Shown one piece after another: positions 24,278-57,605 of a stretch of DNA of 64,000 nucleotides (the first letter of the stretch is position 1; every line of letters starts with the position of its first letter). The notes beneath the pieces are model-generated. The model made no database searches and was not told the origin of the DNA. It saw only the letters and a list, made by a program, of their open reading frames with translations. The translations under genes and the position numbers were made by a program. The DNA is from Anthostomella pinea (taxonomy: Eukaryota > Ascomycota > Sordariomycetes > Xylariales > Xylariaceae), in NCBI GenBank assembly GCA_963556695.1, contig CAUWAG010000018.1, positions 2,976,001-3,040,000 of the forward strand. The letters are read 5' to 3'.

Positions 24278-25309
24278 ACAGTACGAGAAGAAATGGTTGT
24301 TAGTCCGTCTACTTCACTGCCGCCTTCGCGACTTCGCAGGTGCCGTGGCATCGAGCCAGTGCTTGGTTGGATTGCTCCAGCCCATGTGCTAAAGGGCATC
24401 CAACAATTCAATCAACCAGATTAACACCCGTTTAGTTAAATTAAATTGCCTTGACTAAGCAACTTGATTCGATTAATTGGTATAGATTGTTATATCGCAA
24501 TCAACTATCGGCACTCCTCGCATCCAACCAACCAGCCAATGCATCCCGCGTCCTATGCACGACCCAGCGCAGGTAAAGCAAGGCAACCAAGCCACCACCA
24601 CCCAAAAAGGTCACCCATGTGATCGCCGACCAAGCAGTGCCTGCAAGTCTAGCAGCCTGGTCTTTGCGGCTGCCTCGCCGCGACTCATAGGATCGGATCC
24701 GGGTGGTGGCCGACCTTACACAGTAACCTCAAAGAGCCGACATGCAAACATGTAAGCTTCGAGCTGCGGGATAGGCGGGCATATATGCGTGGATGATGAC
24801 TCAGACGTCTGCCTGCCTGCCTGCCTACATTGCACACTCACACTACACATCGCAGCCTGCCTGCAGCCCCCAAACCCGATGAAAATCGCACTACGCAATC
24901 CGATCTCTCATTTGCTGGGGTGCGTACAGGGTGAGGCTGTGGCCCGCGATCCGGGCGATCGGGTTGCAGTACCGGTGGGACGACAACAGAGCCGTATCAG
25001 TCATACCTTAATGAATGGACGAAGTCGGACCAGCGCGATGCAGTGAGATGCACAAGAGGATTACGGGCGAGGCTGCAGCAGGCTGTAGGTAGTGAGAGGT
25101 AGTGTGAGCGTACATGACGATGCGCTTACCTGGGTACAGTACGAGGGGAACGCGAAGTGGACAAACATATAAGGGGGAGGCTGTACCCTCCCTTTGGTTG
25201 ACGTCGAATTTCTCTCTGGATCTGGACTACCCTCGTCATTCACAGGGCCGGCACTCCATACTGAAACTGCCTAATACTGAAGCCTCGTGTTACGAAGAGC
25301 TGCTCCAAG
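24278..25309. other. divergent promoter region
   Basis: About 1 kb between the minus-strand HET gene and the plus-strand small basic protein gene. No gene seen. Confidence 0.5.
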
Positions 25310-26067: not shown

Positions 26068-27257
26068 TCAATGCACCATCGACTTGCCGATCTCACTCGC
26101 CCAGTCCTTCGCCCTCTCAAAACCGTTCGTGTGGAACTGGTAATCGAACATTGCCTGCCGCACCTCCTCAGGGCTATTCAGCACGAAGGGGCCGTACTGC
26201 ACCACTTTCTGATCGAGGATCTGGCCCGCAACAAGCACGAACCGCGCATTCCCGCTCGCAGTCTCCGGCACCTCGACATTGACGGCATCGCCCTCGGGCT
26301 CAAACACGCAGTTGTGGTACTGCTCGACAGTGCGCTTCGCGTCGCCGTGCCCAAACACGGCCGCGCCCTCGAGCTGATACGAAAACACGTTGAACCCCCT
26401 CGGCACCGGCTGCGCCAGCCGGCCGCCGGGCTTGATCTCAACGTCCAGGATCCAGACGGGCGTGTAGGCCAAGTCCTTGACGCTGTCGACGCCGGCGGCG
26501 CGGCCCGAGATGACCTTGATGTGGACCCTGCCGTCGTCGACGTCGGCCTGCGGGATCTCGGCCGCCTTGAGGTCGCGGTACCGCGGCTCGCAGGACTTGA
26601 GGTGCGCCGGCAGGTCGACCCACAGCTGCAGCCCGACGTTGGCGCTGCCGTCGGGGTTCTGCCGCGGCATCTCGGCGTGCATTATGCCCCGGCCCGCTGT
26701 CATGAACTGCAGGTCGCCCGCCTCGATCGTGCCGGCGTTGCCGGCGAAGTCCTCGTGGTCGACGCCGCCTGTCAGGAGATATGTTATGCTGGAGACGCAT
26801 GGTTAGACAAGGTCATTGACACTGGAGGGTCGGGGGCGGTAATGTACGTCTCTTGCCCGCGGTGCGGGTGGTCTGGGAACCCGGCGCCGGGCTTGATGCT
26901 GAAGTGGTCGAGCATCAGGAAGGGCGAGAATTGGCGCAGTTGTGGTGTACCGATGGATCGACGGACGCGAGCGCCGGCGCCCTCGGCCTGCTCGACGGCC
27001 AGGAAGACCTTGCTGATTGCGCGCGGGACCGACATGTCGTCTGCGACGGGCTGTTCGCTTGGATTGTAGTAAGCCGAGTCGGATTCGACGGTCGAGTTCG
27101 TCGTGGAGTTGGCGCTCGAAGGATCGCTTGCCAGATTGTTTATGTGCTTGAGGATACTGTCAAAGCTAGCGATCGCAAAATCGAGGACTTGGTCGCGAAA
27201 GACAATGATGGATACGATGGCTACGGCGATCGATATGGACAGCGAGAGGAGCTTCAT
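26068..27257 (-). CDS. pirin-family cupin protein with N-terminal membrane anchor
   Basis: Exons 27257-26848 and 26788-26068 give 376 aa. The 59-nt intron has a GTACAT donor and a CTCCAG acceptor and rejoins HPHRGQE-T to ITYLLTGG. The pirin N-terminal cupin carries all four expected metal ligands: two His in DHPHRG and His plus Glu in HAEMP. The second cupin (PVWILDVEIKPGG through GPFVLNSPEEVRQAM) is complete. Pirins are Fe-binding nuclear or cytosolic proteins; some have quercetinase activity. Unusually, the first 22 residues are a hydrophobic signal anchor (LLSLSISIAVAIVSIIVF), followed by an Asn/Ser-rich linker with N-glycosylation sequons. That implies entry to the secretory pathway, or a downstream start for a soluble form at the Met of DDMSVPRAIS. 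Confidence 0.9.
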
Positions 27258-40205: not shown

Positions 40206-41465
40206 TTATGTTCTTGCTTGTGGATTAATCGCCTTGGCCGGTATATCTGTCTCATCCGTCACGCTGTTGTTCGCAAACGCCTGTACAGCTCCCCCAATCG
40301 CAGCCAGGCCCGGATCCAAACCTCCCTCACCCCAGCCATCAGGCGCATCAAGCGGTGCCGCAACCCCCATCCTCACCAACCGCACAATCTCCCGGCCACC
40401 CTCACCGTCCGCGCTCCTTTCCCTCTCCCAGACCTCATAAGCCTCCCACCACCAGCGATGCGTCACCCCATCCCTGCCCTTATACCCGGCCACGCCATCC
40501 GCGCCCACGCGCCTCGTCCACGGCTTATCGACGATGTAATGCAGACACACGACCTCGTCGTCGCGCCAGAGGTTCTCGTGCCAGTACCGCATCGTCTTGA
40601 GCGCGTTGAACCGCCACCCCAGCGCGCGCCACCTTTCCCTAAAGAAGCGCGCCAGGAAGTCCTGGTCTGGGAACTTGAAGGTCGCCAGCAGCGGCGCCGA
40701 CGATGAGAAGAACGCCATCATGTCCTCCCACAGCTGGGCCGAGGGATGGAACACGAACATGCCCCCGTTGAGTTGGTGGTGCGTTGCGGGACCCCCGGGC
40801 AGCGGCTGTGTCGGCGTGATTAGGGCCTCGGGGTGGGAGACGGGAGTGTAGGCGCAGTTCTCGCGTCGCCAGTCGGATGGCGCCCAGGGGTCGCCGTCGC
40901 GGTTGCACACGCAGGAGTGGTTGGCGGCCAGCCCGCCGGGCGGGAGTTCCGCCGCCGCCGCCGGCTGCGTGAAGATGATGTCCAAGTTCTGGAATATAGC
41001 CATGTCGGCATCGAGGTAGCAGACGGCGTTGAGCTTGTGTCCGAGCCCCGGGACGTCGTGCAGCTCGAACACGCGCAGTTTCGTCCACGTGTCCTCGAAG
41101 CGCTCGGCTATTAGCTGGGGCTTGAGGTCGCCGGGCGGGAGGAGGTAGGCGCAGGGCTGGAGGATGATATTGGTATTGCTGCGCGAGGCCTCGAGCTGGA
41201 GGGCGCGGAGGGCGTGGGGGGCTAAGTCCGGGGTGTATAGAACTATGAGAGGGTATTGGGAGTTGTGCTGCCGGAGGGTGCGCGCCAGGATTATGACGCC
41301 GGCGAGGTAGCTTGCCCGGGTGATGAGGGTTGCGTAGGCGAAGCGGCCGGGTTCCGGGTTCGGCTCCTGCTCCTGCTCCGGTGTCTTACCGGAAGGCGTG
41401 ATTGAAGCCATTGCGTCCGACGACAGGATAGAGTAGCCTGATGAAGTCCTTGGTATCATGTACAC
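40206..41465 (-). CDS. GT8-family glycosyltransferase (glycogenin/galactinol-synthase-like)
   Basis: Intronless, 419 aa. The fold runs from FAYATLITRASYLAGVIILA (residue 42) through LIVLYTPDL to the metal-binding DxD in CYLDADMAIF (152-154). It continues with HHQLNGGMFVFHPS and FPDQDFLARFF and ends with LHYIVDKPW, the GT8 His-x-x-x-Lys-Pro-Trp-type motif. Family members use a nucleotide sugar and retain anomeric configuration; most are cytosolic, and no signal peptide is present. The gene reads in the same direction as the O-methyltransferase gene 395 bp away. I infer it could glycosylate the cluster product, since glucosylated fungal mycosporines are known, but a housekeeping role is equally possible. 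The C-terminal 50 residues are poorly conserved in character. Confidence 0.88.
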   Translation of the reverse strand: MYMIPRTSSGYSILSSDAMASITPSGKTPEQEQEPNPEPGRFAYATLITRASYLAGVIILARTLRQHNSQYPLIVLYTPDLAPHALRALQLEASRSNTNIILQPCAYLLPPGDLKPQLIAERFEDTWTKLRVFELHDVPGLGHKLNAVCYLDADMAIFQNLDIIFTQPAAAAELPPGGLAANHSCVCNRDGDPWAPSDWRRENCAYTPVSHPEALITPTQPLPGGPATHHQLNGGMFVFHPSAQLWEDMMAFFSSSAPLLATFKFPDQDFLARFFRERWRALGWRFNALKTMRYWHENLWRDDEVVCLHYIVDKPWTRRVGADGVAGYKGRDGVTHRWWWEAYEVWERERSADGEGGREIVRLVRMGVAAPLDAPDGWGEGGLDPGLAAIGGAVQAFANNSVTDETDIPAKAINPQART

Positions 41466-41860
41466 GTGCTGTTAATGCGATTGGGTGTTCAAGTATCCGC
41501 GGCGAGATACACTTTTGCCAGTTGCCGAGTGCGTTGTGTTCGGAACTAAAATATTCAGAAAGTTTTGGTGGTGATTCATTACCTCGGGTGCAGGCCTAGT
41601 TTGCTAGTTGGTCGTCCAATGACGATACTGTGACACGTTGTTTTCCCTCTGGTTTGATGAGCTGGTCACACACAGCTGTCCTGCAACACATGATGGCGGA
41701 TCATGTCGGCGGTCGCTTCTGGCATTTCACCATGGTACTGGGATTCATCGCCCCTTGAACGTGACTTGAGGGACTGAGATGACTATATCGTCTTTTTGCA
41801 TGTCACTTTCTCATTTAAGTTGTCTCTACTGATGCTGTGCTACCTGTCTCGGAAAGCTCG
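41466..41860. other. intergenic region between GT8 and O-methyltransferase genes
   Basis: Probable promoter of the GT8 gene and 3' UTR of the methyltransferase gene. No gene seen. Confidence 0.5.
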
Positions 41861-42849
41861 CTATTTCAACATAGATGCCTGTATATCAACGCACCTAGTT
41901 ATTTCGAGTGCATCCTGCTTCCTGTTAGCCATCAGCCTGGATGTGAGATCACCTCAGCTTACAGGTACACCACTGGGCTCCCAGCCTTTCACTAGCTTGC
42001 TTTCGTACACCAGATTGGGGTTTCCCTTCGGTCCCTCCTCAGTGGGCTTGCGGTACTGTTCTCGCTTCTGGTCGACAGTGCTCCTGACATACTCCAGATA
42101 TGGAGGATTGCCTGGCTTTATGACTGATATGCTGGCGTCAGTATGGAGTAGTTGGTACCATTTTGTAGGTACTGTAGGCAGAAATTAGGCTTACCATTGT
42201 CCGCAGCATAAACGGAGCCTGGTCCAACCAATCCAAGCTCTTCGCACAGCTTCAAGTCTGCCGTATACGCGGGCTTATAATGGTCAAGAAACAGTAGGTC
42301 GATCTGCTGCAGTTTGCCCTGGGTGAACAGGTGGCGTATGGAATCCGAGCTGGGCCCAACGACCACCTTGACGATATCACTGAGTCCCGCGAGCACGACG
42401 AGCTTCTCAATGACACCCCCAAACTCGGGATTCTTCTCCAAACTGAAGTACTGCTTGCCGCCAGCTGCTCTCTGGGCGGCAGCAAAGGCGATAGCTGAGT
42501 ACCCAACGTATCCTCCCAGCTCAACCATCACCTCGGGCTTCTCCTTCTTGATCAGATCGACGACGGTCTTGGACTTGTACTCGCCAATGTTCATGAGATA
42601 TTTTTGCGTTCTCCCGAATTCGTCGATGGCGTCTAGCACCTTCTGCGGGTTACCGCGGATCTGATCGATTTTGTCATGGTTGGTGACAAAATGAAGGAGC
42701 TCTGTTTCTCTACCGTCGTCGAACTGTAGATCACCACATTTATGAGATTTAGGTACGGTTTTGGGGGCGATTCTGAGCCTACTCACAAATACCTCCTCTT
42801 GCGGTTGGTAGGCCTGGCCTTGAAAGTTTTCCTGTGCTGAGTCACCCAT
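41861..42849 (-). CDS. catechol-type SAM-dependent O-methyltransferase (candidate 4-deoxygadusol-forming)
   Basis: Four exons, 42849-42787, 42723-42195, 42123-41963 and 41914-41861, give 268 aa; the introns are 63, 71 and 48 nt with GTGAGT or GTAAGC donors. The SAM site is VMVELGGYVGYSA. Metal ligands of catechol O-methyltransferases are all present: Asp in LLFLDHYKPAY and Asp-Asn in ADNVIKPGNPPYL, the latter restored by splicing intron 2. The C-terminal motif GVPDALEITRC is rebuilt by the 48-nt last intron. In mycosporine pathways an O-methyltransferase converts 2-demethyl-4-deoxygadusol to 4-deoxygadusol. I assign that step from position: the gene shares a divergent promoter with the cyclase gene. 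By sequence alone a generic catechol methyltransferase is possible. Confidence 0.9.
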
Positions 42850-43843
42850 AGCGTGAATTGAGTGTTGAGTTGCTTGTGGTTGCTTGTGGTTGATTTCACG
42901 CGGTATTGAGCTGATCGTTGCCGACGAGATAGTACGCAAGAGTTGACACTCAAAGCCAGAACAGTGTCAACAGATGGTAGCGACTCACGGCTCGTACGAG
43001 CGGACGCGACACATGTGCTTTTACAATCTCATGTGTCACCACATGCATCTTCGATGTCATCGACTTTCTGGTCGCCTGTACAACACACGTTCTGCGCTGC
43101 GCTAATAATGTCTTGGCCCTACTACTCCCTGCAGCTAGCCGGCTAGAGGGACGATCTGGAATGCAAAAACATGGGATTCTCATGAAAGTCGATGTTGAAA
43201 ACGTCCGCAAGGCCGAGGACTGAGACAGTCTCACAAGCCCACTGAAGGCCTATGATACTTCCACTATGCTAGCTCGCGCCAGTCTAACCGCCCGCCATAT
43301 CAGCCGTCTCAGGACTAACAGGTACCGGATGCCCCCCGAACCGAGCATCAATGTTCCGATCCAGATCCGCTCGTCTCGGCACCTAAGCTGAGTGCCATTG
43401 GCCAATAGGGAACGGGGATCTTTGGGGTAGATCGTAGTCTAAACTAGGAGATCTCACTTCTCCGCTGCAAGCAGCTCCATGTAGATCAGGGACCACGCCA
43501 TGGTCTGGTTGCCGGACAATACCATCCAACACGTAGTTGAGTTGAGCCAGCAAGACGAAGTGCGGAGCTTGCTCCGTAACTTTTACTCCAGGGCAATGGA
43601 TGCTTTCAACACCCGACCAAGAATTCCAGGGCTAAGAGTGAAGTCAATGACGAATTGAGTTCTCGGAATGGGAAAGGGTCAGCATGTGACCCGGACTACT
43701 TGAACCTTGCTATGGCTTGTCGACATGAGCCGATTCTCTAGATACCATCAGTCAACCTTCTTCTCCCATTCCCAAACCATCCAACAACTACTCGGGTAGC
43801 CACTCCTTTTTCGCTACATTCTCATCATACACATATAGCCACC
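42850..43843. promoter_or_regulatory. divergent promoter between methyltransferase and cyclase genes
   Basis: A 994-bp region separates the two start codons, so both pathway genes are likely to share regulatory sites. A symmetric CGG-N7-CCG lies at 43326-43338, the style of site bound by Zn2Cys6 dimers; it is only a candidate for the regulator at 55 kb. No gene seen inside. Confidence 0.5.
43326..43338. promoter_or_regulatory. candidate CGG-N7-CCG Zn2Cys6 site
   Basis: Perfect inverted CGG/CCG half-sites in the divergent promoter. Such sites occur by chance at moderate frequency, so this is a weak call. Confidence 0.25.
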
Positions 43844-45656
43844 ATGTCTGACCTCAAGGCCTCCGTGAAAGAGACCAAGAACGGCTTCCACGTCGAGGGC
43901 TACGAGAAGATCGAATATGACTTCGCCTTCGTGGATGGCGTCTTCGACGTTGCCAACTCGAACCTCGCGGACTGCTATAAGAAATGGGGCCGGTGTGTAC
44001 ACCTTCGAGTCTTTTATTTCCCCATATGGTCATGCCCTGAGCGCGAATTCCTACTTCTAGCCTGTGTCAAGAGCCTCTGCTCCCGAGACACGCATTACAA
44101 CTCCATTTTTTCTCGGCAAACTACCTAAATGAAGCAATTACTGACTCAAATTTGCGAGGAGGGTTCTCGCCGTGACAGACAAGAATGTCTTCGCTCAGTA
44201 CGGTCAGAAGATGGAGAAGTATTTCGAGCATTACAATCTTGAACTCAAGATTCATCAAACATCGATCGGAGAGAAGGCGAAGACCATCGACACATTCCTC
44301 AGCATTGCTGATTCGATGACTGAGTTTGGCATTATCCGAAAGGTGAGCTTGCCCCCCTTTTGGATACCCAGCAAAAGAGGCTTACGATTATACTAGGAAC
44401 CTGTGCTCGTCGTTGGAGGAGGACTAGTAACAGATGTTGCTGGGTAGGATGACACTCGACCACTGTCTTTACAGTGAACCTGCTGACGGTGCAATAGCTT
44501 TGCGTGCGCCGCATACCGCCGCAACACCAATTTCATCCGCGTCCCAACGACCGTCATCGGTCTCATCGACGCCAGTGTGAGCATCAAGGTCGCCGTCAAC
44601 TACGGACGGTACAAGAACCGCCTTGGAGCCTATCACGCACCCTTGCACACGTTCCTTGACTTCACCTTCCTCCGGACCCTGCCCATTGCGCAGGTTCGGA
44701 ACGGGTTCGCGGAGCTGATCAAGATCTCCTCCTGTTCTCACCTGCAAGTCTTCGACCTGCTGGACAAGTTCTGCGAGCAGCTTATCGAGACCAAGTTTGG
44801 ACGGGCTGATGAGGCTTCTATGGAGGTTCGACAAGCCGCTGATACAGTGAGTACCATCAGTCGAATCATGCTCATTTCGCCTTGCTAATCATATGGCAGA
44901 TCAACCGTGAGGGTATCTACGAGATGCTCAAGTTAGAGACCCCCAATCTCCATGAGATCGGACTGGACCGCGTAATCGCATACGGCCACACGTAAGTCTC
45001 ACCAGAGTTTCCGCAAAATCATGCGATCATTTACTCACGGATGGTACTATAGATGGTCGCCGCTGCACGAACTCATCCCCGAGACGCCCCTGCGACACGG
45101 CCACGCCATCTCCATTGACATGGCCTACTCAGCTACGCTGGCTAACCAGCGCAAGCTGCTCTCCGACGAGGAGCACCACCGCCTATTCAACCTATTCTCG
45201 AGAGCTGGACTCTCCATCGACCACCCCCAATTCGATGATGACGTCCTGGACAAGGGCACGGCAGCGATCCTCAAGACACGAGACGGTAAACTGCGGCTCG
45301 CCGTACCCAACCCCCTGGGATCATGCAGTTTTATCAACGACGTCACGGCGCAGGAGTTGAGAGACGCTCTGCGCAAGCACAAGGAGATGGCCAAGACGTA
45401 CCCACGCGAGGGCGCTGGCGTTGAGGCCTACGTCGACAGCAGCGACACAGGCTACACGGACCTGGCGTCCGAGAACCTGAGCGTCGAGAAGGCGGCGAAG
45501 GAGGCGGGCGTCCTGTCCGAGAGCCAGAGCGTGGGCAACGGCTTGTCTGGCCAAACGAACGGGCATGCCAACGGCAAGACCAATGGCCATAGCAATGGTG
45601 ACGGCCTGCTGGAGAAGGCAAAGGCGGCTGTCAATGGCATCAAGGCGCAAGCGTGA
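43844..45656 (+). CDS. sedoheptulose-7-phosphate cyclase, DDGS/EEVS type
   Basis: Six exons, 43844-43992, 44162-44342, 44397-44443, 44498-44846, 44900-44991 and 45053-45656, give 473 aa. The fold is dehydroquinate-synthase-like: [15 protein letters not shown] binds NAD, and [20 protein letters not shown] follows. The Zn ligands are Glu198 (FAELIK), His272 (AYGHTW) and His290 (RHGHA). Fungal dehydroquinate synthase is part of the pentafunctional AROM protein, so a free-standing copy with GHTWSP and [11 protein letters not shown] points to a C7-sugar cyclase. Such enzymes turn sedoheptulose 7-phosphate into 2-demethyl-4-deoxygadusol (DDGS) or 2-epi-5-epi-valiolone (EEVS). The O-methyltransferase and ATP-grasp neighbours favour DDGS. 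The last 45 residues are an unusual Asn/Gly-rich tail. Confidence 0.93.
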
Positions 45657-46562
45657 AGGGGGGTTCCTCTGGCCCGTCAACGTGATTTCCTGACACTTTG
45701 GATTATCTAGCGTATCATATTGGGGTCTACATTACCTAGTCTACATTACCTAGTATACATTCTTAGAACTTGCCCCTTGAGCAGAAGGAAATAAAAAAAT
45801 TACCGAAATCGAGCCGAAATAAGACGTTCAGACCGCACGTGAAAATGTTCCCCTCACCGAGTACCTACCTGTGTCCCCTAGCGCCCAACTACCGCGCGTA
45901 AGGCTAAACCTAGATACCCCTGGACACCTTAAGCGTCGCCTTATATCAGGGGCTAGTATAGGCCGTGCCCCAGGCCGGATGAGATCTAAGATCTCGGATC
46001 TCACCTAGTGATGAATCACCTGCCGAGGCCAGCAAGGGGGCCGCGGAGACTAAGCAAGTCGTGACGTTTGTTTTCCGCGCCTACTCTAAGACACAACGTG
46101 TTCGGAACAGCCCGTTGCCAGGCATGTGGGATGTGGGATGCGGGTCGACGTGATTCATCAACTTTATCTTGACTCGGATGCCATGCCTCAACTATAGTAC
46201 CCAATGACATCCGGAATACCTTACGACTGTGTTCCGCGGGCCGCGGCTGCATAGGTAGCTAGCTAGCTATTGCGAATTGCACTCCGGGCCGAAGCTTTCT
46301 CGTCGAGGCGTCATTTGCGTTCTGCTTAGGCTCCTGTGGCGTCAGCTCTGCATAACTCAGTCTGGTCTCACTTTCGGATCTACGATAGCTTCCGGCAAAC
46401 CACACAACTGCGAAGTCACCTCAGGCGAGGAGGGAGGAAAGAGCAAGAGGAACCCCAGCCACGTTGGACGGATCAGTATCTCGCGAAACCCTCATACACC
46501 ATTCAGTCAGTCAGTCAGACAGTGCCCGTCCAAGCGTTGCCCACTGTTCACCTGCGAGGGCC
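45657..46562. promoter_or_regulatory. upstream region of the ATP-grasp gene
   Basis: About 0.9 kb between cyclase and ligase genes, both on the plus strand. It contains the doubled palindrome CCGCGG-G-CCGCGG at 46234-46246 and the run TAGCTAGCTAGCTA at about 46256-46269. No gene seen. Confidence 0.45.
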
Positions 46563-48089
46563 ATGGAGGCTCTGCTGCGAGTTGAGACGCTGAGGTGCTT
46601 CAGCCTAGTCTTTCTCAGCCTGCTGTTGCTTCCGGTATCTATTGTGACGATATGGATCAACCGTTTCTTGTACGAGATCCAATCAATCTCCCGGCCGGCC
46701 TTTGAAAGGAAAACAATTTTAGTCACCGGTGTGGGCATGGCCAAGGGGCTGACGCTGGCGCGGGTATTCCATCGGTGTGGTCATCGTGCCATAGGCGCCG
46801 ACTTCGAAAGCCGCTGGATCCCGTGTTCTGGGCGCTATTCGAAAAGTCTGTCACGGTTCTATCGGTTGCCCAAGCCCAACAGCGAATCCGGCGCTCAGGT
46901 GTACATCGAGCGCCTCCTCGAGATCATCGACGCCCACAAGGTCGATCTATGGGTATCCTGTTCAGGAGTCGCCAGCGCCTTCGAGGATGCCCAGGCCAAG
47001 GAGGCCATCGAGAAGGGTAGCCCGTGCAAGTGCATCCAGTTCGACGTCTCGACCACGTCGGCACTGCACGAGAAAGATGCCTTCATGCGGGCGTGCACGG
47101 ACCGCGACCTGCCGGTCCCGGAGACCTACGACATCAAGTACCGCGACGAAGTCTTCGGCATCCTCGCCGAGGTCGTGGCCCGGCATCCCGATCGCAGATT
47201 CATCCTCAAGCCCGTGGGCATGGACGATTTGCACAGGGCCAATATGACACTGCTCCCGCTGTCGTCGGAGCGCAAGACGAACGAACACGTGTGCCGCCTG
47301 CCCATCTCGCCGGCGAACCCGTGGATCCTGCAGCAGTTCATCTCGGGCGGCGAGGAGTACTGCACGCACGCGCTCGTCGTCCGCGGCGTGGTGCATTGCT
47401 TCGTCGCGTGCCCCAGCGCCGAGCTGCTCATGCACTACGAGGCCCTGCCGCGCACCTCCGCGCTGTGGCAGGCCATGCTCGAGTTCACCGTACAGTTCAT
47501 CGACCGCTCGCCGGACCCCGAGGCCATGACGGGCCATCTGAGTTTCGACTTCATGGTTGAGAACGGGGCCGTGCGCGCGGACGGGTTCGAGAGGAAGATC
47601 TATGCCATCGAGTGCAATCCCCGCGCGCACACTGCTGTGGTGCTGTTTGCGCAGGCGGGGCCGGAGGAAAGAGATATGGTGCGGGCTTACCTCTCTGCAA
47701 CTGACCCGGTCACCGCTGTTCTCTCGGACGACGTCACGTATTCCATGGCCGTGTCGGGAGAGAAGCCGCGCGTGAGTCCGCATCTCGTCATGCCACCCCA
47801 GGATACCCAGGCGCGGTACTGGGTCGCGCACGACCTGATATCGCTACTGAACCTACCTCTGGTGCAGATGGACCGTAGACGGATGGACTTGAGGATGATG
47901 GCGGAAGCGTGTTTCGCTTTCTTGATTCGTCTTTTGACGTGGAAAGACGGGACGTTCGAGGCTTGGGATCCGTGGCCGGCTCTTGTTCTGTACCATGTGT
48001 ACTGGCCGTTGACGATCCTGGATGCCTGTTGGCATGGGAGGGGGTGGAGCAGGGTCAACGTCAGCACGACGAAGATGTTCGCCTGCTGA
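46563..48089 (+). CDS. ATP-grasp ligase (candidate mycosporine-amino-acid synthase)
   Basis: Intronless, 508 aa from the ATG at 46563; the frame is open 33 codons further upstream but that part looks like 5' UTR. Residues about 10-35 form a hydrophobic segment (CFSLVFLSLLLLPVSIVTIW), then a Rossmann-like start ILVTGVGMAKGLTLARVF. The ATP-grasp core has RRFILKPVGMDD, WILQQFISGGEEYCTHALV and the metal-binding end IYAIECNPRAHTAVVLF (Glu and Asn). In cyanobacteria and animals the third mycosporine gene is an ATP-grasp enzyme that joins an amino acid, usually glycine, to 4-deoxygadusol. I assign this role from family plus neighbours. The membrane anchor is not typical of cytosolic family members. 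The amino acid used cannot be read from the sequence. Confidence 0.9.
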   Translation: MEALLRVETLRCFSLVFLSLLLLPVSIVTIWINRFLYEIQSISRPAFERKTILVTGVGMAKGLTLARVFHRCGHRAIGADFESRWIPCSGRYSKSLSRFYRLPKPNSESGAQVYIERLLEIIDAHKVDLWVSCSGVASAFEDAQAKEAIEKGSPCKCIQFDVSTTSALHEKDAFMRACTDRDLPVPETYDIKYRDEVFGILAEVVARHPDRRFILKPVGMDDLHRANMTLLPLSSERKTNEHVCRLPISPANPWILQQFISGGEEYCTHALVVRGVVHCFVACPSAELLMHYEALPRTSALWQAMLEFTVQFIDRSPDPEAMTGHLSFDFMVENGAVRADGFERKIYAIECNPRAHTAVVLFAQAGPEERDMVRAYLSATDPVTAVLSDDVTYSMAVSGEKPRVSPHLVMPPQDTQARYWVAHDLISLLNLPLVQMDRRRMDLRMMAEACFAFLIRLLTWKDGTFEAWDPWPALVLYHVYWPLTILDACWHGRGWSRVNVSTTKMFAC

Positions 48090-48600
48090 TCGTCTTGGGA
48101 GCGGAGAATATCCTAGTGCGTTACTTATCAGGGCCCGGGTTTCTGGGAGGTTGAGCAGTACATCAAGAGGCATCTTGAAAACTAAATAATAAGTATTCAG
48201 TACGAAGGGGGAGTCAAACTTGTACACTTCTTCCGACCCTTCCACCGTGTACCATAATCGTGATATGTCGATGACGCCGTGGGATTCTCGATGTATGTTT
48301 CTCAAAGTGACGCGAAGATACAAAGCCGTTTAGCAGGATATTTACTACGTTATATAGCAATCAAGTATCGATCGGGAGTAACTAGATACACTCAGAACTG
48401 AACAGACTTGTGTGCCAATATGCAGGGCAGCCCGCAAGCTTCATCTGCGGACACCGCTCGTACATCAGGTGGAAGGCAAGCTAGCCACATTCACGCCCCA
48501 GATTGAAAAGACCAAGGTGATCAAGAAAAGCCCAGCCTAGACATCGAAACAGCATGACGAAGCACGACAAAGCAGACGCCCTGGCCAACGGTTGCTTCGC
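48090..48600. other. convergent 3' flanks
   Basis: Lies between the ends of the ATP-grasp gene and the minus-strand secreted-protein gene. No gene seen. Confidence 0.5.
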
Positions 48601-49477
48601 TCAGACCACGACAGCATTGGCGTTCCCGCCGCCCAGCAGTGCCGCGAGGATATCAGCAAGCGAGCTGCCCGTCGCTGTGCCAGCGCCAGCACCAGCGCCA
48701 GCGCCAGCCGCGGCACCTGCGCCGGTGCTGGCGGCCGGGTCGGGCGTCAGGAGGGCGAACTCGCCGTTCATGAGCGCCGTGTTGGTCAGCGTGACGGCGA
48801 GCTCGTCCTCGACGGCCTCGAACTCGCGCTCGGCTAGCGTCGAGTCCAGGACCACGAAGCTGTTGGTCTCGGTGCACAGGCGGCCGATCTGGGCCTGCGT
48901 GATGTCGACGGCTTTTGGGGGGAATACTTAGCGCGGCGTTTCGAGGGTACGTTCCAAGTCATTAAATCCATGAAAGATGGGGAACAGTGAGAAGGGGGAA
49001 GGGGAAATAACGCACCACGGTTTGTTCCAATATAATCAATCTGGCCCCTGGTGATGGCGTCCACGCTGCCGGTGAACTGCACCTTGAAGGATGAGGGATC
49101 GGCCAAGACGAAGCCGGACGGGGCCGCGGCCGGAGTCTTGTTCTCGGTAACGGTGAAGCTGTTGGCGACTTTGTCTGCGAATTCAACCTCGATAGACCCG
49201 ACAGTCTGTGCCACCCAATATCAGTGACACCGTACTTTGGGCACTTCCACGAGTCCGCGTCTCTTGCTGATGAGCTTACCGTCGGGGGCATGGCAATGGC
49301 CTGGAGCAGGTCTCCACCCTCGACGGGCGTGTCGGTGTCGAACGTGCCCGTGCTCTTGACCTTGTTCTTCTCGTCCTCTTCCTGGCGGGCCGAGAGAGAA
49401 GACCTCCGGGCGGCGGGACCCGTGGGGAGGGCCGAGACAGCGGCCGCGGCCAAGATGAGAAGCCGTAGCATATGCAT
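48601..49477 (-). CDS. secreted protein of unknown function with Ala/Gly-rich tail
   Basis: Exons 49477-49280, 49205-49016 and 48911-48601 give 232 aa. Introns of 74 and 104 nt have GTAAGC and GTGCGT donors; phases match throughout. A signal peptide is clear (MHMLRLLILAAAAVSALP), followed by a basic Arg-Arg/Ser-rich stretch that could be a propeptide processed before RQEEDEKN. The middle domain contains GSIEVEFADKVANSF, FVLADPSSFKVQFTG and TNSFVVLDSTLAEREFE. The tail is an Ala/Gly run, then SSLADILAALLGG. I do not recognise the family. It interrupts the cluster on the opposite strand between the ATP-grasp and A-T-R genes; whether it takes part is unknown. Confidence 0.8.
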
Positions 49478-51034
49478 GTTGGTCGGCGGCTTGGGAGTAA
49501 ATGAAGGGCTGGAGTATGGAGTAAGTCGCCGGTAACGAGCGAAAATAATGGAGATTGGTAAAAGAGAGGGCCGGCCCCATGAGAACTGAAGTCGGAAGGA
49601 GAGAAAAGACGACAAGACAAGAAGCCAAGAGGTATGATAGAGCGCCACGGAGTATGAAGATCCAGACGATCCATACTGGCGTCCCACGACACCTCATATA
49701 CGGGAGATGGCTACGGGCATGTCGACAGTAGGTAAGCCAAGGCTTTCAAGAATATAGGAGAGGCCGGCTCTACGAGCGATTTGGGATCACTTCAGCCGAC
49801 AGACACGACGTCTGCTACATGGTTCCGTTTCGTGACAAGTTTGAGAAATGAGGCTATCTTGGCTATCCTCTTCCAGCCAGACTCTTTTCTTATCCGAGAA
49901 CTCTGGGATCCCCACGCAGCCAGTCTCCCTTGTCTGGCAGTCTGGGGGCCGAGGAGAGTCGTGGAGAGGTGCCGTCCGAACCGTGGCAGCCGTGCGTAAG
50001 AGCCAAGTCAAACCCGATGCCCCCGTGCCCGCAATTCCAACGGCTCGGCGCACCCGATCCTCGTCGGGATCCATCGGCCTGCTCTTGACAAGGCGCCCAC
50101 CAAGGAGGAAGTAGATATATGCAACGTGCCATGGGAAGCTGGGTGCGAATGATCGTACACTGATCTATTAATACTACGGGCCCCAGAGATGTTCGGACCA
50201 CTACGCGTGCCGGGCTGCATCTTTTCTACCGACGACGTCCTCCGTTGCATTGTCGCGAACGACCTCACTGTCTCCACACAACCTTTGAGCGAAATGAAGG
50301 CGACTTCAACCTGGGTCGCCAAGCGGTCGCGAAACTGGTCGGCGAACTCCATTTCAGTCGCTGTGACCGGGAGACTGTTGCGGAGGACGTCGTGGGCATG
50401 AAGTCTTGACCCGGTGAAGTCAGTTGTGGTACCAGTATGGCCTCATGAGAAAGCGAATGTCTTGGTTTGGCCGCAGACGTTGCACACTTATCTGTCCCGG
50501 TCCCCGGCCTTCCACATGGTCAATCAGTTACTTGCTTCCTTGCATGAGACGGATAGCTGGATCAGGGCTTGTTCATGGCGGAATATTGATGTATCGACGA
50601 CGGCGTGGGTGGGCTGTCCAGTGATGTTCTGACTATTTACGGTAATGGTGGATAGACAGTCTGTGGTTCAGATGCGCCGTCGCTCTCTTACCGATTACGA
50701 GATGCAATAACACCTCCGACGTGTTGAGGAAGCAGCTGCCTGCGTAAAGAAAGGTCTTACTGGAATGGAACTACCAAGTCAATGACCTCATGGTTCAACA
50801 CCAGCGCGTCACCCACCAACGTCCCAATGAGTCGCACCAAAATACATCGCTTAGTCGCCAACAAATAATCTTGAACAATCTGCAACCACTTGTCGGATCC
50901 AGCCAAGCCTCCTATTACCAGTGTGATGTGCTAGGTACACACAAGTCTATCGCTTCACCTAGAGATACATAGACCAGCAGCCCTGCCTCTACCAGTCGAA
51001 GGACACACGAGACTAACCGCTCAACATCATACTC
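49478..51034. other. 1.5-kb intergenic region upstream of A-T-R gene
   Basis: Probable promoters of the secreted-protein gene and the A-T-R gene. ORFs near 50008-50352 (minus) and 50414-50632 (plus) look mildly protein-like but match nothing I recognise and lack splice support. Confidence 0.45.
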
Positions 51035-54000
51035 ATGGGGGCCGCCGACCTCAACTACTTCACGTGCACCCTTGGCCAGGCTGCGCTACTGAAGAAAGAG
51101 GGTCGCCAACAGAAGGACTCATTCCAGACGGTCATTCAACTGATAGAAGAGCAGGCTGAAAGTCTACCTGATTCGCCTGCTCTTGGGTTCGCCAATCTGC
51201 GGAAGGGAGAATGCCGCAATCAGAGTTGTGTGTGCCAAGTCAATCCTAGAACACTCGCGTATGCTGACGGATGCGCAGTGCCCGACCAAGTCACCTTTTC
51301 GGAACTTTGCCGTCTATCAATATCTGCAGCTGTACTCCTGAAGGCGTCGTTGCCCTCGGCCGCTGATGGGCAATATTCAGAAACAGTCGGGCTGATCTGC
51401 AGCAGTAGCTTGGATTTCGTACTCACATGGCTTGGTCTCATGCAATTAGGTCGCAAGGCCTTTCTGCTGGCGTAAGGTTCCCCTGTCTACACTCCGTTTA
51501 CGATCTTCAGTATCATGCTGATCCCCCAGTCCTCAATTGGATTCTCGATCGATAGACCACCTCTGTACTGGCTCTGACGTAAGAAGTATCCTGGTGGACA
51601 AGGTCCACGAGCAGAGAACGTCGCAATTTCGTGACAGCATCAACATCGTGAAGATCCCACAATACGAGGGAGACTCGCAGTCGAAAACAGACATCCCGGA
51701 GGGCAAGGGCCTCAGTGGCAAATCGTCCGATATTGCTTATCTTCGCCACACATCGGGCACGTCTTCGGGATTACCAAAGCCCATCCTACAGACACAATGG
51801 GGAGCTGTAGGCTGTCTACCAGTTCTACCTGACCAAGGCCAGGCCGCAACCTTCTCGACCACGCCACTCTACCATGGGGGTCTTGCCGACTGCTTCAGGG
51901 CATGGACCAGCGGGGCCGCAATCTGGTTCTTCGCCGAAGGGTTGATGCCCATTACCGGTGCCAATGTCCTGAAAGCAGTCGCTCATGTTCGCGAAGAAAG
52001 TCAGGCTTCTTCTGTCAAGTACTTTTCGTCTGTCCCGTACGTGCTTCAGATGCTCGCTGAGGAAGACGAGGGCATAAAACTTCTACAGACCATGGATATG
52101 GTGGGCGTTGGCGGAGCTGCGTTGCCCCCTTCGGTTGGTGACAGACTAGTCAAGCTGGACGTCAACCTCGTCTCGCGGATGGGGAGCGCCGAGTGCGGTT
52201 TCCTCATGTCATCACATCGCAACTATTCCGAGGACACGGAGTGGCAATATCTTCGGCCAATGGACGATCCAAGCTTCCTGTCATTTGAGCCTCGCGACGA
52301 TGGTCTCTCGGAGCTCGTGGTGAAACCAGCTTGGCCTCTGAGGACAAAGGTGAACCGTGACGATGGGTCATATGCCACGGCAGACTTGTTTGAGCCGCAT
52401 CCTTCGATGCCAAACGCATGGCGATACGATAGCCGTGCGGATGCTCAGATCACACTTGCCAATGGCAAGAAATTCGACCCGTCTCTACTCGAAGGCGCCA
52501 TTCGAGCTTCAACCGACATGCTACAGGATGTACTCATATTCGGCGCTGGCAGAGATTATGCTGGGGCTCTCCTATTCAAAGCATCACCCGATGTCTCAAC
52601 TAACGATGTACTTGATGCCGTATGGCCAGAAGTGCAGCAATTGAACACAAGAACGCAAAGCCATGCTCGGCTGACAAAGGCGATGCTGGTTATTATCGAT
52701 GCTGAAGGCCACGATGCGCCCCTGCCGAAAAGTAGCAAAGGAACTATACTGCGTCATCAGGCTGAGGACCGCTATGCCGATGTCATCGACTCGGCCTACA
52801 CTGGCCGAGGATCCAACATGGGCCAGGCTCGACACATGTCTGGCGATGACATCTTTTCAGTCGTCTCCAGCCTCTTCAGTGAGGTTTTGGGGAGAGAAAT
52901 TGATGCCGAGCAAGACCTATATGAGCAGGGGGTCGACTCGATTGCTTGCATTCAGATACGGAAACTCGTTGAGATCAGTGTGCTGCCCCCGGGCTCCGCT
53001 CCATTACCGATGAACGTTATCTATGACAACGGCACCATCCGCTCACTAGCCAACACCCTGGTAGAGGTTCGTCGGGGGACCAGCGATCTGAATAACCCTG
53101 CCGATCATCGCGAAGGGAAGTTGATGAGAGAGCTAGCTGACAAGTACTGTCAATTCCCGCCAATGCAAGTGGACGTGATGAAGAAAGAGGGGATCGTCGT
53201 GGTTCTTACAGGGGCAACGGGGGTATTGGGGGTTCACGTACTATCACAGATGAGCAACGACCCCAAGGTGCGCAAGGTGTATTGCCTGCTGCGTGCATCG
53301 ACACCCTTCGCCGCCCGAGAGCGTGTCGCCAAAGCACTTCTGAACAAGAAATTGATCGGCCTGCAAGAGGTCACAGAGGCGCATGCCTTGGACGACAGAA
53401 TTACCTGCTTACCTTGCGACCTAACCGGGCCTCAGCTGGGCCTCTCGGATGAAAGTTGGAGATGCCTGGTCTCTGAGGCTACCGTCTTCATCCACTCCGC
53501 CTGGTCTGTCAACTTCAGTCTTCGGCTCACCTCATTCGAGAACCAGCTTGCGGGAACTCTAAACATGATCAATGCGGCTCTAGCAAGCGACTCGAAGTTC
53601 TTCTTCGTCAGTTCCACTGCGGCTGTGAGCAACACGTCTTCTGGTGACATTGCTGAGAAGCCCTCGCTGGACCCGAAAGACGCATCACCCTTGGGGTACT
53701 CAAGATCGAAGTGGGTAGCTGAACGAGTGTGCTCAGCAGCACATGAACACTTGCTTCATGATCGAACATCAATCGCAGACTCCCGGGGTATTTCGATCAT
53801 CCGGGTAGGGCAGCTCTGTGGCAACCAAGCTGGGGCTTGGAATGCCTCTGAGGCATATCCACTGATGTTGTCGACCGCCAGCTTCGCGGGATGCCTCCCA
53901 GCTCTGCCCAGCGAGTGTCTCAACTGGTTACCAGTAGATACAGCTGCAAAGGCAGTCTTGGATATCGCCTTGCCTAGCCCGGCAACGCAGAACAGGGGAA

Positions 54001-54401
54001 GCTCAACGAGCGAGTCGCAGCCCCCAATCCCTGTGTACCATGTGCTCAACCCGCACAGAACACCATCCTGGCGTAAGATGCTCGACTGGATCGCAAAGGC
54101 CCCCGGCGGCTCGTCGTTCGATATAGTGCCAGCGGCTGAATGGCTTGATCGCCTTGAGAGAGCCTTGAAGGCGTCGGAAACGAAACACCCCTCGCAGGCG
54201 CTCTTGGGGTTATGGAAGCGGAAGTATTCCCTGGCAGAGACCATTTCTCAATCCGACGAGGTTGAAAAGTCCGCTGGGAATGGTCCTCCCAAATTCCAAG
54301 TGTTGTTTACCCAACGAACGTCGGAGACGATGCGAGATGTCGAGCCATTAGAGGAGGGGGATGTCATTCGGATGTGGGAATGGATACAGGGCAATTCTTA
54401 G
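51035..54401 (+). CDS. NRPS-like adenylation-carrier-thioester reductase (A-T-R)
   Basis: Exons 51035-51471 and 51530-54401 give 1102 aa; the 58-nt intron has GTAAGG and CCCCAG ends. The adenylation domain carries the phosphate loop TSGTSSGLPKP (about residues 220-229), TTPLYHGGLADCFRAW in the A4 region and SRMGSAECGF in the A5 region. The carrier has its phosphopantetheine Ser in GVDSIACIQIR (about 614). The reductase has TGATGVLG (about 705) and the YxxxK pair in GYSRSKWVAERV (about 868), as in NAD(P)H-dependent thioester reductases. Such enzymes load a carboxylic acid as a thioester and release it as aldehyde or alcohol. At 1102 aa it is shorter than Lys2 (about 1400 aa). In this cluster I infer reduction of a mycosporine-bound amino acid to the amino alcohol. 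Confidence 0.93.
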
Positions 54402-55170
54402 AGGTGCTGGACTTGGCGAATTTTAATAAATATCCGTGAATATCACCATCACGGGTCGACCCTTACTAGGACAGTGGGTTTGCTCATACTGGAGAGTCGC
54501 GATGCCTTTAGCAGCCCCTCCAGGCTGGCCTGCGTCTGCTTGGCCAGTACCTAATGTCGTGGGAGCCGTCGGGTCAGCTTTCCTGACTTCTGAAGTACGT
54601 AGAGCAACGTCGACGTAGCCAATATAGGCATATAGTTAATCTCGGAATCATCATCTCTTGTGGATGGGTTCTGGGAAGTGGGCTGCAAAATTGTGTGCTT
54701 TGGTATTTCTTATCTACCTAGGTACCTACGAACACCCCTATCCAATCCGCATATCTCGGACTCTTGGGTTGTCCGAGATGCCCTAGCGCCCGGGCCGGAC
54801 AAACTTCGGAACAAGCTGTCCGCCTACCGAATTACTTAGTAAGCACTTTATTTTCGGACACCTGGACTCCCAGTCTCATCGGGCTTTCGACCGCTCCGAA
54901 TCTCGGTTGGTCGACGGGAGTGACATTCATTCACCGAAATCTCTCGACATTCTACCGCAACACGCCAGCATGTCCAATCTATGACTTAGGCTCCGAGTAA
55001 GGCTCCATCCTAGATTGAATGTGCCGGCGCCCCTGTTGTCCGACGAGGTGCAGCCATCCCGCGCAGCCGTGGTAGTGGTAGCTGGGTGACAGCGGGCATC
55101 ATCTCCTGGCTTGCGTCCGCTTCATCGTCTCAGCGTTGGTGTCGGTCCTCCGCTTACGAGTATCGCAACC
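54402..55170. other. intergenic region between A-T-R and regulator genes
   Basis: Probable promoter of the Zn2Cys6 gene; no gene seen. Confidence 0.5.
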
Positions 55171-57605
55171 ATGTCTACAGGGCAAGCGGCTCCGGCTCCC
55201 GGTGCATCGTCTCCGGCCATGCCACCCTCCTCTTCCCAGACTTCGAGGCCACAGCGGGTACTTGCCTGCGTGATTTGTCATGCACGCAAGGTTAAATGTG
55301 ACCGCAAGTTTCCTTGCTCCAACTGTGTCAAAGGCAACGTACAGTGCGTGCCGGCGGCAGTGACCCGTCGTCGGCCGAGGCGTCCACAGCCCGAAAAGGC
55401 CCTCCTGGATCGCCTGCACCAATACGAGGAGCTGCTCCGCAACAACAGTATCAAGTTTGAACCGCTCCACAAGGCCCCGACTACCGAGACAGTGTCTCCA
55501 AATACGGAGCATGAGGCGGCGGGCTATGCTTCGGACGATGACCAGCCGCCGGATGCTACCGGTACTCCGACAGACGCGCCATCTCCTTCCACCACTGCCA
55601 AGTCCGATAAACCACTGCAATCTGTGGCCAAGTGCGTACACCTCCCCAAAGAGTTCTTTTGCGGTGAACTGACGATCACAGGAACTTCTGGCAGCTCGTA
55701 AACTCGGGGGTATGTCTACTTTACGCGTGCTCAGAGCTATACTAAACAATTTGAACTAGTTCCGGGACAGCACCGACAACGAAGCTGATCACATCGAGGA
55801 GGATGTGCGTGCGGTTATAGTCAGGAAGGCATGGGAGCAGGCGACGGGGGACTCGATATTCCTTGCGCTTGGCTCGCGAGGAACGCCCATCTCCCTCTCT
55901 TTCCTGCAGCCCGAAACCGTACAGATAATCAGGTTCTGGCAGATCTACCTAGACAACGTCAACCCCCTACTCAAAGTCACGCACGCGCCCAGCTTGCAAG
56001 GCCGCATCATAGAAGCTATCGGCAACTTGGGCAATGTCAGCCCCACCTTGGAGGCTCTCATGTTCGGCATATACTGTGTGTCCATCATAACCTTGTCCGC
56101 GGATGACTGTCGAGCCATGTTTGGCTCGCCGAAGGAAGAGCTCCTCACGAGCTATCAAACAGCATGTCAGCAAGCTCTAGTGAACTGCAAGTTCTTACAA
56201 ACCAACGATCGAGACTGCTTAACCGCTCTTTTCCTTTACATGGTGAGTACGCATTTGAGCTGTGTGACTATCACAAGTTCGCTATTGCTGACTTGCATAG
56301 ATTTCGGTCAGTCCCAGCACGGATCCAATGACCCTGTCGTCCATGCTTGGCAATGCCTATCGCATCGCATGTCGCATGGGCATTCACAGGGAGGCCAGTC
56401 TTGCGAAGTGCAGTCCCTTCGAGGCGGAAATGCGCCGAAGGCTGTGGTGGTCCTTCGTACTCTTCGACAACCGCATCGGTGAGCTGGCTGACAGCAAGTG
56501 CGGATCGCTGAACCCTACCTGGGACTGCAATATCCCCCTCAACGTGAATGATTCCGACCTCCGACCAGAAATGAAGGAGGCAGCGACACCCCAAGCCCAA
56601 GGGTACACCACTGACACCATCCACGTTGCCGTCCGCAGTGAGTTTGGGAACTTCCTCCGTCACTATGATGCCTATCTCGACTTCACCAATCCATCTCTAA
56701 AGCGCCTCACAAAAGACGCACGCGATAATGTCCCAGAGATTCGCGAGTTGGATGCCCTGGAGAAGATGATCGAGGATACATACCTCAAACTCTGTGACCC
56801 TGAAGTGCCACTCCACTTCTTCACTATATGGTTTATGCGCGGGCTCATTGCAAAGTGCCACCTTGTTACCGGTTACGCAAAATCCAACCTACTCCGCGAC
56901 TCTACCGCAGAGCAGGTCATTGCACAGCTCGATTTGGCGACTAATTATGCGATGAGGGCGCTCGAGTGCGATACAAAAATATCCAGCTCGCCCCTCACCA
57001 AGAATTACCATTGGGTACTCCACTTCCACTTCCCGTTCCCCGCCTACATCCAGATCGTCGTAGACCTGAGAAAACGTCCCTTCAGCAAGCATGCCGATCG
57101 TGTATGGGATCTCATGAGCGACCATTGCGAAGCCCGTTTCTCCTCCAGTGAAGGTGAAGTCTCCGTCCTGAACGCACTCTTCCAGGTGTTTTCAAAGACG
57201 ATACTTCCAGCCTGGGATGAGCGAGAGGCAGCGGCAAAGGAGTCGCAAAAGCCATTGGGCCCAACTCCCAGAATAGTGACATTTATCAGAGACAGGCTGG
57301 ACCGAATAGCCCGGGATTCGCAGGGTGGACAGGATTCCAATACCGCAAGGCAACAGGCCAGCGATCTAATGAACCTGGACGACGTGGACTATTCCATGTC
57401 GGTGCCCATGACCATGAGTCCGAACAGCTTGAATACGCTGAACAATCTCATGTACGGTATGGGGATGGGGATGGGCGGGCAAGCCGGTTCCCCGGGCACG
57501 ATGCCCGGGCTATTCCCTCCGACACCTGCACCGAACTCATTAGACATCAACCAGGTGGACTGGGCTCCTATGGGCTGGGGTCCGGGGGAGCGGCGCGGCT
57601 GGTGA
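55171..57605 (+). CDS. Zn2Cys6 transcription factor, candidate cluster regulator
   Basis: Four exons, 55171-55631, 55682-55709, 55760-56242 and 56301-57605, give 758 aa. The first intron (GTGCGT to CACAG) and the 28-nt second exon rebuild AKNFWQLVNSG; the unspliced frame would stop. The DNA-binding domain has six cysteines at 33, 36, 43, 49, 52 and 59 (CX2CX6CX5CX2CX6C), followed by a basic linker RRRPRRP and a short coiled coil (LLDRLHQYEELL) for dimerisation. The middle region has the fungal_trans signature (MLGNAYRIACRMGIHRE, then RRRLWWSFVLFDNRIGEL). The tail is Met/Gly/Pro-rich. Its position next to the A-T-R gene, same strand, suggests it controls the cluster; this is inference. Confidence 0.93.

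Follow-up and report, generated by a model that had tools for sequence, protein, structure and literature searches.

The window analysed here, a stretch of 64,000 nucleotides of Anthostomella pinea (Xylariales, Xylariaceae; G000:C14:2976001-3040000, in an assembly of 53.7 Mb and 16 contigs), carries at 41954-54401 a set of genes that we predict with high confidence, from their sequence relationships, to be a mycosporine (MYC) cluster. It joins a trio of core genes, encoding 2-desmethyl-4-deoxygadusol synthase (DDGS), an O-methyltransferase (OMT) and an ATP-grasp ligase, to a gene of the A-T-R NRPS-like carboxylate reductase family. In Xylariales-type fungi, chance does not account for the A-T-R gene occurring near the trio. 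The best single reading, to which we give an even chance, is that the A-T-R enzyme reduces the carboxyl group of the ATP-grasp product and so yields an amino-alcohol mycosporine. The enzyme types of the trio are already known from Phaffia rhodozyma, and the predicted role of the reductase is plausible but unproven. Many fungal mycosporines, which absorb UV, bear amino-alcohol side chains. Because its gene accompanies the trio across Xylariales-type fungi, the predicted reductase opens the reduction step to direct testing, and it would be of use in making new water-soluble UV filters. The four genes are as follows.

42849-41954, minus strand: OMT; exons 42849-42787, 42723-42195 and 42123-41954; 253 aa
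43844-45656, plus strand: DDGS; six exons (43844-43992, 44162-44342, 44397-44443, 44498-44846, 44900-44991 and 45053-45656); 473 aa; Pfam DHQ_synthase and DHQS_C
46563-48089, plus strand: ATP-grasp ligase (MysC relative); one exon, 508 aa; hydrophobic N-terminal stretch
51035-54401, plus strand: A-T-R NRPS-like carboxylate reductase family gene; 1102 aa; one intron, 51472-51529

The core trio and the A-T-R gene

Gene models and domain searches placed all six genes claimed in the initial annotation, which comprised these four, a Zn2Cys6 regulator and a GT8 enzyme, at or near the sites it had assigned to them. Its account of a mycosporine core, with a free-standing cyclase of the DHQ-synthase fold that keeps its Zn ligands and a COMT-type methyltransferase divergent from it, is likewise borne out. 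In a search of PDB, the best match of DDGS is 5tpr (497.7 bits, E 2.9e-148), presumably the DDGS of Anabaena although its PDB record is itself named 3-dehydroquinate synthase, followed by 4p53 at 232.6 bits and by 14 other matches at or below 109.1 bits. The DDGS signature peptide of Phaffia, the one peptide that the comparison with Phaffia proteins covers, is identical in 24 of its 30 residues, and the DDGS of Nostoc HK-01 is 54% identical to the window protein, which on sequence grounds is thus a DDGS-type sedoheptulose 7-phosphate cyclase of the kind found in fungal MYC clusters. Residues E199, H273 and H289 (numbering of P0241), which we take to correspond to the Zn ligands of DHQS, are unchanged across 17 fungal DDGS sequences. 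P0241, the public model of this same gene (Anthostomella pinea Uu.00g070590), matches the window DDGS at 100% over its full length and is identical to the 473-aa model except for one extra residue at the exon 1/2 junction: tandem AG acceptors 3 bases apart at exon 2 (window 44150-44170) give models with or without one Arg, and exon 2 of P0241 starts three bases earlier. DDGS has two further matches in the assembly: a distant one, at 27%, within a frame of 1592 aa, and a broken fragment on contig C9 (G000:C9:298884-299097; L001:3382-3847) whose DNA is 81-87% identical to a portion of exons 3-4. The 7-kb stretch around this fragment showed no other part of the gene, and the fragment is probably a decayed second copy.

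The OMT, transcribed divergently from DDGS, belongs to the catechol-OMT family (PDB 5zy5, probable catechol O-methyltransferase 1, E 1.2e-40) and is the sole gene matched when the assembly is searched with it; the MYC cluster of Phaffia likewise has a catechol-type OMT beside DDGS, as far as its name tells. The ATP-grasp protein, also the only match to itself in the assembly, has no Pfam match at 0.001 and matches NCBIfam PRK06849 at 182.7 bits, under that model's cut-off of 406. A plasmid of Nostoc HK-01, used for comparison since no prokaryotic DDGS locus was found in the genome contig collection, carries DDGS, then an OMT, then an ATP-grasp relative. This last protein, two genes after DDGS, scores 560 bits with PRK06849 and aligns collinearly with the window protein (31% over 460 aa), which points to a MysC-related ligase, the Nostoc protein rather than that of Phaffia being the comparator. 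Mycosporine genes of Phaffia have been named catechol OMT and carbamoylphosphate synthase (PMC8875396), and Xylaria ATP-grasp relatives among the best 120 of 1318 also bear the latter name. Public names can mislead: among P0265, P0194 and P0222, DDGS appears as chitin synthase class 7 and ATP-grasp proteins as catechol O-methyltransferase. The second of these names may stem from a reference set with models that fuse OMT to ATP-grasp.

The A-T-R protein contains, in order, AMP-binding, AMP-binding_C_3, PP-binding and NAD_binding_4 domains. Among the named relatives within the best 120 of 886, the carrier Ser616 of the T domain is present in 108 of 109, with one gap, and R-domain residues Y869 and K873 in all 109, so that the A, T, R order is found together with the carrier Ser and YxxxK of fungal A-T-R carboxylate reductases. 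The window protein is accordingly predicted to be of this family and to carry out ATP/NADPH-dependent carboxylate reduction. The PDB entry nearest to its R domain by sequence is 8aep, which we match to the NcCAR R domain of PMC10168641; that paper reports that full-length NcCAR reduces aldehydes to primary alcohols. With NcCAR and PnlA, the window enzyme shares the A-T-R order, the catalytic residues and a His-type A domain, described below, whereas its genetic context and its predicted substrate differ. An R-domain column first taken for the catalytic Thr is not conserved in Hypocreales and was left unused.

The trio resembles that of Phaffia, whose MYC cluster (DDGS-OMT-ATPG) spans 7.9 kb and in which single deletions of DDGS, OMT or ATP-grasp abolish mycosporine production, the ATP-grasp mutant accumulating 4-deoxygadusol (PMC10057719). 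Both clusters have the same three enzyme types, a catechol-named OMT and divergent transcription inside the trio. However, DDGS lies opposite to OMT and ATPG in Phaffia, whereas OMT lies opposite to DDGS and ATP-grasp in A. pinea, and the available text describes no A-T-R within the 7.9 kb (PMC10057719). The available part of the 2016 Phaffia genome paper names no reductase either.

The cyanobacterial mysABC(D/E) clusters have related DDGS and ATP-grasp proteins, judged by the Nostoc HK-01 identities of 54% and 31%. In contrast, the A. pinea OMT is from another methyltransferase subfamily than MysB (23% identity over 144 aa to the Nostoc OMT); the Nostoc OMT and the Nostoc D-Ala-ligase-like (MysD-type) neighbour found no match in the assembly, in searches run without a positive control. 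MysE ends in a thioesterase, whereas the A. pinea NRPS-like protein ends in a reductase, NAD_binding_4, with no thioesterase match.

Linkage of A-T-R with the trio in relatives

Linkage was assessed in the best 120 of 886 A-T-R, the best 120 of 3240 DDGS and the best 120 of 1318 ATP-grasp relatives from shared contigs, locus tags and fused gene models, a contig counting as shared when the longest contig listed for each entry has exactly equal size in bases. By name, the A-T-R entries comprise 50 Xylariales-type, 56 Hypocreales and 3 others, lineages being presumed from the genus, together with 11 without a name. Among the 50 Xylariales-type entries, 27 share a contig with both ATP-grasp and DDGS, 6 with ATP-grasp only, 9 with DDGS only and 8 with neither; 42 of 50 in these lists thus lie on a contig with one or both. 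A 43rd linked entry, P0027, comes from the 8 without a shared contig: it is a gene model that fuses ATP-grasp to A-T-R, and two of the 42, P0007 and P0031, are fused in the same way. The remaining 7 include 5 multi-sequence clusters, whose listed contig may be another strain's, and two single-sequence entries, P0001 and P0110, which are unlinked as far as listed; the DDGS entry for the organism of P0001 is a two-sequence cluster and has a contig of different size. One of the 11 entries without a name shares a contig with an ATP-grasp entry, and none of the 3 others does. A smaller set (62 A-T-R, 66 ATP-grasp and 59 DDGS entries) gave the same Xylariales counts as the full 120 each.

The contig-sharing test shows that A-T-R lies on a contig with trio genes more often than by chance: of the 27 Xylariales-type entries on contigs shorter than 1 Mb, 21 share their contig, against 0.23 expected from random placement in an assumed 45-Mb genome, the entries being related by descent. 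In line with this, the locus tags of DDGS, ATP-grasp and A-T-R are 12759, 12761 and 12763 in Pestalotiopsis fici and 9726, 9727 and 9729 in Apiospora marii; ATP-grasp and A-T-R are 1698 and 1700 in A. hydei, and in Xylaria curta g783 (fused ATP-grasp/A-T-R) precedes g784 (DDGS). In a tree of the A-T-R proteins, built with a quick method, rooted at the midpoint and with several open forks, linked entries occur in two parts, one made up of Xylariaceae/Hypoxylaceae and the other of Apiospora/Pestalotiopsis/Diatrype.

Part of this association is already in print. Homologues of an NRPS-like mycosporine cluster are reported from most Hypoxylaceae, and two groups of four Hypoxylaceae clusters are labelled mycosporine-like, with no product assigned to them and, in the available text, no role proposed for the NRPS-like enzyme (PMC8403587, 2021); the A. 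pinea cluster probably belongs to one family with these clusters of neighbouring species. PFICI_12763, the A-T-R relative of P. fici, is listed among uninvestigated A-T-R enzymes (PMC9605436). The literature search, with subscription papers mostly outside its reach, returned no enzyme assigned to the carboxyl reduction of fungal mycosporines.

The predicted reduction step and its alternatives

By homology to tested genes, steps 1-3 would lead from sedoheptulose 7-phosphate to desmethyl-4-deoxygadusol, 4-deoxygadusol and a mycosporine-amino acid. In the fourth step, the A domain of the A-T-R enzyme would activate the mycosporine-amino acid by adenylating its free carboxyl, the T domain would take up the acyl group as a thioester, and the R domain would release the aldehyde with NADPH, the alcohol arising through a second round or a host enzyme. 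Glucosylation of the product by the GT8 enzyme would be a guess. In A domains that activate amino acids, the free amine is held by an Asp at the GrsA-235 position. In the window protein, this position, located by eye from GrsA motifs, is the His of the motif PLYHGG, and His occupies it in all 106 named Xylariales-type and Hypocreales entries of the A-T-R list. Since the nitrogen of a mycosporine-amino acid sits in a vinylogous amide (enaminone), no free ammonium would need holding; His would suit an acid with an amine that is no longer free, and we therefore place the reduction after coupling.

The reverse order has some footing in print. The A-T-R enzyme could act first, reducing a free amino acid (glutamine, glutamate or serine), and ATP-grasp would then couple the resulting amino alcohol to 4-deoxygadusol; in the view of the Phaffia authors, it is glutaminol that ATP-grasp attaches (PMC10057719), and fungal A-T-R enzymes of clade I are proposed to reduce amino acids (PMC9605436). 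The invariant His speaks against this order, which we regard as improbable: two NRPS-type domains of the same assembly keep the Asp, and the window protein lacks the Asp expected of the amino-acid-reducing clade I, a clade represented here by that trait only. Specifically, among paralogues at 14 loci of the assembly, 8 A-domain stretches could be read, 5 with His, 2 with Asp (L011 and L012, both NRPS-type) and 1 with neither (L008).

Fungal carboxylate reductases are typically described as halting at the aldehyde (PMC9605436, PMC10168641), and the released aldehyde might cyclise or condense to a new mycosporine type with no amino alcohol. We hold this outcome to be very improbable, as amino-alcohol mycosporines of the glutaminol and glutamicol types occur in fungi. 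To our knowledge, no cyclised product has been described.

Several observations count against a reduction of the ATP-grasp product by the A-T-R enzyme. In the lists of relatives, none of the 56 Hypocreales A-T-R entries lies on a contig with DDGS or ATP-grasp, and no Hypocreales name occurs among the best 120 of 3240 DDGS or the best 120 of 1318 ATP-grasp entries; the DDGS list has entries presumed to be Dothideomycetes, Leotiomycetes or lichens, lichens also occur in the ATP-grasp list, and these assignments cover the entries that bear a name. Conversely, 45 contigs are common to DDGS and ATP-grasp entries, of which 27 occur in the A-T-R list and 18 do not, one of the 18 being the window's own, whose A-T-R served as the query. 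With the A-T-R tree rooted at its midpoint, the Apiospora/Pestalotiopsis/Diatrype part falls on the same side as the Hypocreales, so that the Xylariales-type entries are not one group. His at GrsA-235 is also common to paralogues of other function in the assembly, and at 90% conservation only 4 positions distinguish 46 Fusarium sequences from the Xylariales-type ones. No promoter motif common to the cluster genes was found beyond those of Markov shuffles. Some fungal mycosporines are unreduced, for example the mycosporine-alanine of Colletotrichum, as the title of a cited paper has it. We know of no mycosporine product from Xylariales.

The weightiest of the alternatives is that the trio makes a mycosporine alone and that the A-T-R gene is the core of a separate adjoining pathway of the Fusarium NRPS11 family. 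The Phaffia trio expressed in S. cerevisiae is reported to suffice for a high-performance liquid chromatography peak co-migrating with mycosporine-glutaminol (PMC10057719, whose main text, by word search, mentions no mass spectrometry); if this result is right, reduction there needs no cluster A-T-R. The Hypocreales relatives have near-identical pocket residues and different neighbours: over ten pocket positions they differ from the Xylariales-type mainly at one, which is Ala in 49 of 50 Xylariales-type entries and Pro in 41, Ala in 12 and Val in 3 of 56 Hypocreales. With pockets so nearly the same, the substrate may be common to fungi without the trio. As a means to split two substrates, the pocket comparison failed, the residues of the two groups being almost alike. 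In Fusarium, P0068 and P0092 are fused models in which A-T-R is continued by a Pyr_redox protein, a Zn2Cys6 domain coming first in P0092, which suggests a different cluster around A-T-R there; none of six long Hypocreales A-T-R models matches the window outside A-T-R. The DDGS and ATP-grasp contigs without an A-T-R entry among the best-120 lists also fit two pathways. Against a separate pathway stand the linkage of 43 of the 50 Xylariales-type entries, its occurrence in both parts of the tree and the three fused ATP-grasp/A-T-R models, and we consider it rather unlikely. As a side observation, P0061, P0066, P0068 and P0092 of Fusarium (NRPS11 family) have A-T-R fused to a Zn2Cys6-type regulator and/or a Pyr_redox protein. 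No tie to mycosporines appears in the available parts of the literature on Fusarium NRPS11 or of the Verticillium ANN cluster paper, and a literature search on mycosporines with Fusarium, Trichothecium or Nectria returned no paper with the word mycosporine.

Taken together, the reduction proposed in the initial annotation keeps its genetic tie in Xylariales-type fungi and a compatible, His-type A domain, and is weakened by the reported sufficiency of the Phaffia trio. Co-conservation of A-T-R with the trio, named beforehand as the point on which the proposal could fail, is seen for most of the Xylariales-type entries among the best 120 but for none of the Hypocreales, which supply 56 of the 120. 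A fuller reading is that the A-T-R enzyme is the missing carboxyl reductase, acting on the completed mycosporine-amino acid in thioester-bound form, that it replaces the cyanobacterial second-amino-acid step in an ancient, Xylariales-wide reductive branch, and that the relatives in Hypocreales go back to this same enzyme, the trio having been lost; we advance this only tentatively, as somewhat short of an even prospect.

Regulator, glycosyltransferase and neighbouring genes

Four further features lie in or beside the cluster.

40206-41459, minus strand: GT8-family glycosyltransferase, candidate glucosyltransferase; 417 aa, PF01501; linked by position only
42850-43843, unstranded: OMT/DDGS divergent intergenic region from the gene models, presumably a shared promoter
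about 48601-49477, minus strand: probable small secreted protein gene, spliced, ends approximate; outside the proposed pathway
55171-57605, plus strand: Zn2Cys6 transcription factor, candidate regulator; 758 aa; linked by position only

The Zn2Cys6 and GT8 genes are genuine by domain content, and GT8 has weak PDB matches to Skp1 galactosyltransferase and glycogenins. The initial annotation had counted both as cluster members; position is what ties them to the cluster, and the intergenic region 42850-43843 holds no motif common to the other promoters beyond shuffles.

Because the small secreted protein gene lies between ATP-grasp and A-T-R on the opposite strand, A-T-R does not directly adjoin ATP-grasp. 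A Pfam search placed its product in no family, with nothing above the cut-off, and the protein has an Ala/Gly-rich tail. The Pestalotiopsis and Apiospora locus tags also allow one gene between ATP-grasp and A-T-R. Farther upstream in the window, open reading frames at 21920-24313 and 26068-26802 resemble, by eye, a HET-domain protein and a pirin, respectively.

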